Shown here one piece after another: positions 25,881-28,628 of a stretch of DNA of 64,000 bases. Source of the stretch: Pelagibacteraceae bacterium AG-414-E02 (GTDB lineage Bacteria > Pseudomonadota > Alphaproteobacteria > Pelagibacterales > Pelagibacteraceae); contig QCLK01000002.1 in assembly GCA_003214615.1 (NCBI GenBank), forward strand, positions 62,001 to 126,000, written 5' to 3'. A program made the position numbers and the translations under genes. Positions within the stretch are counted from its first letter, which is position 1; each line of letters begins with the position of its first letter. The notes below the pieces were generated by a model. That model was given only the letters and a program-made list of their open reading frames with translations. It was not told where the DNA came from and made no database searches.

Positions 25881-26744
25881 GTGAAAAAATTTAAGTTAAA
25901 ATCTTTTTGCAAGATCAATTTAACATTGAGAGTTATAAAAAAAATGCAAAATGGTTATCATAATATTCAATCTTTAGTAACATTTTGCAATTTATACGAT
26001 AGTATTACGATTTCAAATACAAACCATTTACACGACAAAATATTTTTTTCTGGAAAATTTAAGAATGGTATTAGTAAAAAATCTAACACGATAACTAAAC
26101 TTCTATATTTATTGAGAAAAAAAAATTTTTTAAAAAAACAGGCATTTAAAATAAATATAAAAAAAAATATACCACATGGATCGGGTTTGGGAGGCGGATC
26201 GTCTAATGCCGCAACATTATTAAATTTTTTTAACTCAAAAATGCATCTAAGGCTTAACAAAAATCAAATATATAAAATATCCAATCAAATTGGTTTTGAC
26301 ACACCAATCAACCTATATAAGAAAAATACACTGGTAACCGGAAAAAAGGGAAAACTTTTAAGATTTAATAATAAATTAGGCTTAGATATATTGATAATAT
26401 ATCCAAACATAGTTAGCTCAACCAAAAAAATATATGAAAAAAATAAAAAATTTAGTCCCAGAGAAAGTCAAATTAATTTTAATACTAAAAATAAGAAGAA
26501 ATTAATTACTTATCTAATAAATGAAAACAATGATCTTGAGTCAACTGTAATTAAATATTATCCAAAAATTAAAAAAGTTATCAATTTTATAAAATCTCAA
26601 AATGGCTGTATCTTTTCAAGAATTACAGGCTCTGGATCTGCTTGTATTGGAATATTTTCTAGTAAGAAAAATGCAATTTATGCTAAAAAATTGATAAAGT
26701 TAAAATATCCAAAATACTGGAGCGTTATATCAAAAACTATATAA
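25881..26744 (+). CDS. ispE: 4-diphosphocytidyl-2-C-methyl-D-erythritol kinase
   Basis: A 287-residue GHMP kinase with a GTG start. KSFCKINLTLRV is the substrate motif, NIPHGSGLGGGSSNAATLL the ATP loop and ITGSGSACIGIF the third motif. It phosphorylates CDP-methylerythritol in the non-mevalonate isoprenoid pathway, which feeds the ubiquinone side chain and heme O farnesyl groups used by other genes here. Starts 9 bp after the TPR gene; probably same transcript. Very Lys/Asn-rich as its neighbours. Confidence 0.93.
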   Translation: MKKFKLKSFCKINLTLRVIKKMQNGYHNIQSLVTFCNLYDSITISNTNHLHDKIFFSGKFKNGISKKSNTITKLLYLLRKKNFLKKQAFKINIKKNIPHGSGLGGGSSNAATLLNFFNSKMHLRLNKNQIYKISNQIGFDTPINLYKKNTLVTGKKGKLLRFNNKLGLDILIIYPNIVSSTKKIYEKNKKFSPRESQINFNTKNKKKLITYLINENNDLESTVIKYYPKIKKVINFIKSQNGCIFSRITGSGSACIGIFSSKKNAIYAKKLIKLKYPKYWSVISKTI

Positions 26745-26778
26745 AGCAAATCATTTGTGATATATCTCAACATAAATT

Positions 26779-26852
26779 TGGGGCGTAGCCAAGCGGTAAG
26801 GCAGTGGTTTTTGGTACCACCATCCTAGGTTCGAATCCTAGCGCCCCAACCA
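26779..26852 (+). tRNA. tRNA-Gln (anticodon UUG)
   Basis: A full cloverleaf can be folded by eye. Acceptor stem TGGGGCG/CGCCCCA, D arm with AGCCAAGCGGTAAGGC, anticodon stem GTGGT/ACCAC around TTTTGGT (anticodon TTG), T arm CCTAGGTTCGAATCCTAG, discriminator A, and an encoded CCA. Length 74 nt including CCA. The next gene, the CCA-adding enzyme, begins 4 nt after the CCA. Confidence 0.96.
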
Positions 26853-26856
26853 GAAA

Positions 26857-28155
26857 ATGTTTGATAAAATAAAAAATATTGTTTTAAAAATTGATCGTCA
26901 GCTTTATAAAAAATTTGGTTCGGATAAAAGTACTAAATTTCTTGAAAATTTAAATGAAGCACAAATAATTTTTTCATATCTCAATGAAATAGGAAAAGAA
27001 AGCAAAGTTAAATTTGTTGGAGGGTGTGTAAGAAAAGCAATTTGTGGCGAAAATATTGATGATATTGATTTGGCTACAGTTTTTACACCAGAAGAAGTTA
27101 AAAAAAAACTTAATCAAAAAGATATTAAAGTAATTGATACCGGGTTATCTCATGGAACTGTTACTATAATTTTAAATAAAAAGAAATTTGAAATTACAAC
27201 CCTAAGAAAAGATATTTCTACTGATGGTAGACATGCAAATGTGGAGTTTACTTCAAATTGGAAAGAAGATTCTTTGCGCCGAGATTTTACAATAAATGCA
27301 ATTTACGCAGACATGGAAGGAAGAATTTTTGATCCTTTAGAAGGAATAGCTGATCTAAAAAATGGAGAAATAAAATTTATTGGTTCAGCAGAAGAAAGAA
27401 TACAAGAAGATTACTTACGTATTTTACGTTATTTCAGATTTTTTATTCAATATAGTAAATTGGATTATGATCAGGAAATTATTCGTTCAATAAAGTTGCA
27501 TATTGATGGATTAAATAAAATTTCTAATGAAAGGATATTTGATGAGTTGACAAAAATTTTGTCCCTCAAAAATGTATATAACTTATTTTCTAATAACACA
27601 TCACGTGAAATTATTCAAAATATATTTCCACAATTTAAATATTATGAAAGATTAAAAATAATTAACAATTTAAATCAAAAATTAAAGAATAACTTTGATA
27701 ATTATTTAATTTTGGCTGCACTTATTTTAGACGATACAAACAATTATGAATATTTTTGTCACAAATATAAAACATCTAACAATATTAAAAATAGATTTGA
27801 AAATATTTCAAAAAATTTTGAAAGTCTTAAAAACAAAAAATTTTATACAGAAGAAAATATTAAAAAAATGATTTATTTATCAAATAAAAAATACGTTAAA
27901 GATTTGCTACTTCTTTCAATATGCATAAATAAAAAAATAAATATTTTAGAAATAGAAAAATTAATTGAATATGTTGCTAAATGCGAAGTGCCTAAATTTC
28001 CTATTTCTGGAGACTATCTCAAAAAATATGGATATGAAACTGGAGAAATGTTGGGCAAAAAACTCAAATCATTAGAAGAAAAATGGATTGAAAATGATTT
28101 TATTATAGAAAAAAAAATAATAGAAAAATCTTTAAATAAAGCTAGAAAAAATTAA
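26857..28155 (+). CDS. cca: CCA tRNA nucleotidyltransferase
   Basis: A 432-residue class II nucleotidyltransferase. VKFVGGCVRKAICGENIDDIDLAT has the GG and metal-binding DxD motifs, SLRRDFTINAIYAD the RRD motif, and EDYLRILRYFRFFIQY the following nucleotide-selecting helix. It adds or repairs the tRNA 3' CCA end. Poly(A) polymerase is a possible alternative but less likely by motif. The ATG is 4 nt after a tRNA; no in-frame ATG, GTG or TTG occurs before the GG motif, so this start stands although it has no SD. Confidence 0.87.
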   Translation: MFDKIKNIVLKIDRQLYKKFGSDKSTKFLENLNEAQIIFSYLNEIGKESKVKFVGGCVRKAICGENIDDIDLATVFTPEEVKKKLNQKDIKVIDTGLSHGTVTIILNKKKFEITTLRKDISTDGRHANVEFTSNWKEDSLRRDFTINAIYADMEGRIFDPLEGIADLKNGEIKFIGSAEERIQEDYLRILRYFRFFIQYSKLDYDQEIIRSIKLHIDGLNKISNERIFDELTKILSLKNVYNLFSNNTSREIIQNIFPQFKYYERLKIINNLNQKLKNNFDNYLILAALILDDTNNYEYFCHKYKTSNNIKNRFENISKNFESLKNKKFYTEENIKKMIYLSNKKYVKDLLLLSICINKKINILEIEKLIEYVAKCEVPKFPISGDYLKKYGYETGEMLGKKLKSLEEKWIENDFIIEKKIIEKSLNKARKN

Positions 28156-28628
28156 ATGTATTTTATATCTGTAATTTCAAAATTTTTTTCACCCGATGGT
28201 GTGCTAACCGATACTAGATCTTTTTTCTTTTTTCCTATTAAAGCCTTTCCAATTGGCGATCTGAAGTAAATAAAATTTTTTGCTATATCTGCCTCATCTT
28301 TACCGACTATTTTGTAGATATTTTTTTCATTATTTTCTAAATTTGTTACATGTACAGTTGAACCAAATATAACATTATCTTTTTTTTCTAATGTAGTTAC
28401 GTCAACGACATTCGCTCTCGCAATTAAGTCATTTATTTCAATAACTCTACCTTCCATTTTTGCCTGCTCTTCTTTCGCAGCATGATATTCTGCATTTTCT
28501 TTTAAGTCACCATGCGCTCTAGCTTCAGCAATCGCTTGAACTATTTTTGGTCTTTTAATTTTTTTTAATTCTTCTAATTCTTTTTTTAATTTTGCTAGTC
28601 CTTGGGATGTAATTGGTTCTTTATCCAT
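28152..28628 (-). CDS. greA: Transcription elongation factor GreA
   Basis: 158 residues. The N-terminal antiparallel coiled coil runs from LAKLKKELEELKKIKRPKI through DLKENAEYHAAKEEQAKMEGRV, with the acidic tip (D, E) that enters the RNA polymerase channel. The C-terminal FKBP-like domain holds YFRSPIGKALIGKKKKD. It rescues backtracked RNA polymerase by stimulating transcript cleavage. Full length. Shares a TTAA stop overlap with cca. Confidence 0.95.
   Translation of the reverse strand: MDKEPITSQGLAKLKKELEELKKIKRPKIVQAIAEARAHGDLKENAEYHAAKEEQAKMEGRVIEINDLIARANVVDVTTLEKKDNVIFGSTVHVTNLENNEKNIYKIVGKDEADIAKNFIYFRSPIGKALIGKKKKDLVSVSTPSGEKNFEITDIKYI

Follow-up and report, generated by a model that had tools for sequence, protein, structure and literature searches.

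In nearly all Pelagibacteraceae, the gene for tRNA-Gln(UUG) and cca, the gene of the CCA-adding enzyme, are neighbours on the same strand, separated by a spacer of 3 to 8 nucleotides. The best explanation, and one that we hold to be somewhat probable, is that of a conserved tRNA-mRNA bicistron produced by gene loss in the course of genome streamlining, with no dedicated feedback. The junction was studied in a SAR11 genome of 1.14 Mb in 11 contigs, in a stretch of 64,000 nucleotides (G000:C2:62001-126000) that we call the window, and was then compared among genomes of the family, the sister family and the class.

The junction in the window and in the family

The features of the locus are collected in Table 1. 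A sequence-only reading of the window had placed the ATG of cca four nucleotides past the CCA encoded at the end of tRNA-Gln, and both the sequence and the ARAGORN call, a tRNA-Gln(ttg) at 26779-26852, bear this out: the CCA ends at position 26852, and the ATG is at position 26857. The Rfam model RF00005 matches positions 26779-26849 with 64.4 bits. The open reading frame of cca contains domains PF01743 (E 4.9e-31) and PF12627, both exceeding the cut-off.

Table 1. Features of the tRNA-Gln-cca locus, in coordinates of the window
Feature	Position	Strand	Evidence
ispE (GHMP kinase), 5' neighbour of tRNA-Gln	25881..26744	+	ORF list; PF00288, PF08544
Extended -10-like element TGATATATC, putative tRNA-Gln-cca promoter, 21 nt 5' of the tRNA	26758..26766	+	conserved TGnTATA
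tRNA-Gln(UUG), CCA encoded at 26850-26852	26779..26852	+	ARAGORN; Rfam RF00005
TAG within tRNA-Gln, in the cca frame, closing the frame upstream	26839..26841	+	start analysis
Spacer GAAA, from CCA to ATG; presumed endonucleolytic 3' processing site (putative cleavage)	26853..26856	+	sequence
cca, CCA-adding enzyme, 432 aa	26857..28155	+	ORF list; PF01743, PF12627; start analysis
Convergent neighbour, GreA-like (sequence inspection), 4-nt overlap with the cca stop	28152..28628	-	ORF list

The same reading had allowed for a single usable start, and rightly so: the ATG at 26857 is the only ATG, GTG or TTG in frame upstream of the GGCVR motif (residue 55), and the second in-frame start, a TTG at position 27070 (codon 72), lies 3' of this motif. 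The choice of start is credible because an ATG is kept at this position in all 15 loci of the same genus, while from codon 16 on the differences between them fall mostly on third positions.

The pattern used to search for the junction consists of the 3' half of tRNA-Gln, the CCA, 2 to 12 nucleotides and an ATG. It was matched in 238 of 297 Pelagibacteraceae genomes, and the reversed pattern, used as a control, in none; the poor conservation that had been named in advance as a refutation is thus not what the genomes present. Many of the genomes with no match belong to genus g5, or are assemblies where no cca was found. The junction is present in all sampled genera of the family but g5, with genus g14 yielding no cca match, and wherever a locus of the window's own genus extends over the 5' end of cca, tRNA-Gln lies 4-5 nt 5' of the ATG.

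The gap between tRNA-Gln and the ATG has a median of 4.5 nt and a range of 3-17 nt, with 3-8 nt in 56 of the 60 measured loci, which are not all independent, a few being the same genome reached through two collections. Conservation of the 4-nt spacing holds only in part: adjacency and shortness are kept, but an exact gap of 4 nt is not, and was rejected. The gap instead takes values typical of each genus: mostly 3 nt in g3, 4-5 in g1, 5-7 in g4, 6-7 in g9, and 6-17 in g12. A conserved spacer motif was also rejected, as the bases vary freely; they are A-rich in g1, and AAT, TTT or TAT in g3.

The enzyme itself differs in genus g12, where Cca is only about 250 amino acids long, versus 432 in the window, and misses its C-terminal part; no large same-strand open reading frame that could complete it was found downstream (L067-L072).

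Origin of the junction

In genus g5, the order of genes is ispE, tRNA-Gln, a GNAT acetyltransferase gene, and cca (L050, L053, L056, L057, L160). In the sister family f2, cca is preceded by a GNAT and a NUDIX gene, and no tRNA is nearby. By inspection, the GNAT proteins of g5 and f2 have a common GPGRYAR segment and a common layout. The g5 layout, with GNAT between tRNA-Gln and cca, appears to be the ancestral one. Since g5 keeps the intervening gene, and f2 has the order GNAT-NUDIX-cca without a tRNA, the simplest reading is that the junction probably arose when the genes that separated tRNA-Gln from cca were lost. One loss and two losses are not separated by the cca tree: a constraint that unites all members outside g5 costs 4.8 log units, with an AU p of 0.286.

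A deep conservation of the neighbourhood was considered and rejected, given its absence from 12 loci of the sister family and 40 loci across the class. None of these 40 loci, which come from other families of the class, has a tRNA-Gln beside the start of cca, and within this sample the succession of tRNA-Gln and cca is found only in Pelagibacteraceae. One of the 40, from an unrelated alphaproteobacterial family, has a distinct and independent tRNA-cca neighbourhood, in which a tRNA-Arg(ACG) ends 20 nt before cca (L185, about 1050-1147).

Transcription, processing and translation of cca

Where a tRNA gene adjoins a protein gene on the same strand, with no terminator between them, the two look like a tRNA-mRNA bicistron; this is the arrangement of tRNA-Gln and cca, with a 4-nt gap in the window and a junction match in 238 of 297 genomes. 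The gap has no room for a terminator, nor for a separate cca leader; cca would thus be read through tRNA-Gln, unless a promoter sits within the tRNA.

An extended -10-like element, TGnTATA, is found 18-24 nt 5' of tRNA-Gln in 46 of 46 loci from nine genera, and is absent upstream of tRNA-Gln in g5, g7, g9 and g12. In g7, g9 and g12, tRNA-Gln is close behind ispE, and its transcription must differ, either by read-through from ispE or by another promoter. The idea of a common -10 motif for all tRNAs of a genome was rejected: TGnTAWW precedes 6 of 28 and 6 of 31 tRNAs, versus about 0.1 occurrences in every 45 nt of control sequence.

From such a transcript, RNase P would cleave the 5' side of tRNA-Gln, and an endonuclease would cut the short A/U-rich spacer, freeing the tRNA and leaving cca an mRNA whose AUG is preceded by about 0-4 nt. 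This mRNA would be translated without a Shine-Dalgarno (SD) motif, as is usual in this genome, and the coupling of tRNA-Gln and Cca supply, if any, would be a side effect of shared transcription. That tRNA 3' processing frees a near-leaderless cca mRNA is plausible. RNase E/G, the putative cutter, scores 457-475 bits and exceeds its cut-off of 326 in all 6 genomes tested, and a canonical RNase Z, with at most 41 bits, reaches its cut-off of 293 in none of the 6. In Propionibacterium acnes, tRNAs that encode their CCA are cut endonucleolytically a few nucleotides 3' of the tRNA (PMC3848588); in E. coli, every tRNA encodes CCA, and the normal pathway proceeds without cutting by RNase Z (PMC2777011). 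A cut by RNase E could also land 3' of the AUG, and destroy the cca message.

The remark that the 4-nt gap leaves no room for an SD motif outside the tRNA is correct, and no SD-like motif was found in the 40 nt upstream of the ATG. This is no peculiarity of cca, an idea that was rejected because the scarcity is genome-wide: SD-like motifs precede 6.5-11% of starts in these genomes, versus 1.6-4.9% in controls, and their rarity implies that SD-less initiation is ordinary here. The 4-nt gap alone is equally unremarkable and corresponds to the genome norm: within the window, the median gap between same-strand genes is 3 nt, and 32 of 46 such gaps are of at most 10 nt. The published median for intergenic regions of Cand. 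P. ubique is likewise 3 nt (PMC2704228). An unusually stable fold at the start codon was looked for and not found, with z values of -1.6 and -1.4.

These observations also bear on an alternative that we regard as unlikely, although it fares best among the rivals: the unprocessed transcript, tRNA-cca or ispE-tRNA-cca, could be the main template for Cca, each molecule meeting either excision of the tRNA or translation of cca. In the predicted fold, the AUG region beside an intact tRNA is mostly unpaired, SD-less initiation is normal in these genomes, and the position of tRNA-Gln close behind ispE in g7, g9 and g12, with no promoter-like element, is consistent with a long transcript. However, a tRNA folded 3-8 nt 5' of the AUG would fall within the stretch that a ribosome usually covers at initiation, and unprocessed tRNA precursors are usually short-lived. 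The tRNA would crowd this ribosome footprint, which would favour processing before translation.

Other tRNA-gene junctions and the question of feedback

The junction with cca is one of several. Within the window's genome, the ends of tRNA-His and of three tRNA-Leu species likewise lie 3-7 nt 5' of a gene. Each of the 26 genomes with sufficient sequence retains the pair tRNA-Leu(UAG)-tig, with a gap of 4-16 nt in 24 of them (L206-L232); one apparent gap of 164 nt was found, by inspection, to contain another tRNA-Leu-like copy, whose end lies 7 nt from the ATG. All genera with sequence also have the pair tRNA-His-hisS, at 4-6 nt wherever ARAGORN finds the tRNA (L233-L260; G000:C2:41173-41584), and its spacers are 86% A. 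This junction is tighter and more conserved than that of tRNA-Gln and cca, and, with its short A-rich spacer, may be more deserving of attention.

In the two genomes scored with ARAGORN, every scored tRNA gene, 28 of 28 and 31 of 31, encodes its CCA; a divergent tRNA-His that ARAGORN missed in the second genome is, by inspection, also CCA-ended. With the CCA encoded, Cca acts in repair, and is dispensable for the maturation of tRNA-Gln. The feedback between tRNA maturation and Cca synthesis envisaged by the sequence-only reading is thus not supported: the loop is without an evident sensor, no canonical RNase Z was found, SD motifs are scarce throughout the genome, a gap of 4 nt is the norm there, the length and bases of the spacer drift, and comparably short conserved junctions stand 5' of hisS and of tig, whose product is unlinked to tRNA ends. 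The hisS and tig junctions argue against a circuit specific to Cca, and for a general tolerance, or use, in SAR11 of near-leaderless genes placed after tRNAs.

Two regulatory readings can still be formulated. We would give a low probability to the first, by which tRNA excision yields near-leaderless mRNAs of cca, hisS and tig and, for Cca and HisRS, the upstream tRNA acts as an operator that ties synthesis to processing or to free enzyme; a loop of the operator type, with the enzyme bound to the tRNA of its own message, would suit hisS better than cca. The second, rated lower again, is a dedicated circuit in which tRNA maturation or free Cca controls the translation of cca by way of the tRNA carried on the cca message, by feedback or in the manner of thrS. 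The substrate class of Cca does lie directly 5' of its start codon, and tRNA-His is likewise found 5' of hisS in all genera sampled, but Cca is unneeded for maturing a tRNA-Gln with an encoded CCA, the spacer drifts, the gap is the genome norm and tig has the same arrangement. Least probable is a promoter of cca within the tRNA gene, so that the transcript, normal or leaderless, would owe nothing to tRNA processing: little is known of promoters in SAR11, but a -10 element for a start near the AUG would hit the GC-rich acceptor strand CGCCCCA, and the conserved promoter-like element sits 5' of the tRNA instead.

The bicistron without dedicated feedback can be compared with known systems. In bacterial tRNA-mRNA operons, tRNA genes are followed, for example, by tufB, secE or tig, and these SAR11 genomes have both tRNA-Trp-secE and tRNA-Leu-tig. 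The likeness is that of a tRNA and a protein gene on one strand, in one apparent transcription unit; the differences are the partner, cca, its gap of 3-8 nt, and the lack of a leader or SD motif outside the tRNA. Mitochondrial tRNA punctuation is similar in that the start codon follows the tRNA almost without a leader, here at a distance of 3-8 nt in 56 of 60 loci, and excision would give a leaderless or near-leaderless mRNA. However, punctuation involves a 3' cut by RNase Z and a CCA added later; in SAR11, the CCA is encoded, RNase Z is below the cut-off in 6 genomes and RNase E/G is the likely cutter, only some genes are so placed, and the release of mRNA is putative. As in the leaderless mRNAs of mycobacteria (PMC4633059), the start codon of cca is expected at most a few nucleotides from the 5' end, with no SD motif, but there the 5' end comes from the transcription start, while cca would acquire it by tRNA processing. 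With thrS-type autoregulation, the junction has in common a tRNA structure directly 5' of the start codon of a tRNA-binding enzyme; the thrS operator is tRNA-like, while cca has a genuine tRNA gene and no SD motif to mask. A partial search of the literature found no direct precedent in bacteria for tRNA processing that sets free a leaderless mRNA, and one may exist.

The junction appears to be a persistent by-product of an extremely compacted genome; compaction together with SD-less translation is the simplest account. Genome shrinkage can thus yield lasting couplings between tRNA and enzyme genes without selection for regulation. SAR11 are among the most abundant bacteria, and several of their core messages could hardly be produced without passing a tRNA on the way. 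Should excision indeed set these messages free, the group would offer a bacterial parallel to tRNA punctuation in mitochondria, and a natural test of translation that dispenses with both leader and SD motif.

Further observations concern the other junctions. In g12, the 11-nt spacer between tRNA-Leu(UAG) and tig contains an SD-like GAGGA. At the hisS junction, the tRNA is a substrate of the enzyme encoded by the adjoining gene, and derived traits of the SAR11 tRNA-His and HisRS have been published (PMC3937112). Genus g3 has two unlike types of HisRS, about 48% and 90% identical to that of the window's genome (L254-L259 versus L233 and L242). Both types have tRNA-His 4-5 nt 5' of hisS, and in some members of g3 this tRNA is too divergent for ARAGORN; this looks like a replacement of the tRNA-His-hisS cassette. 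Finally, tRNA-Leu(CAA) ends 7 nt (g1, L126) or 4 nt (g3, L145) before a gene that, by inspection, is acyl-CoA-synthetase-like.
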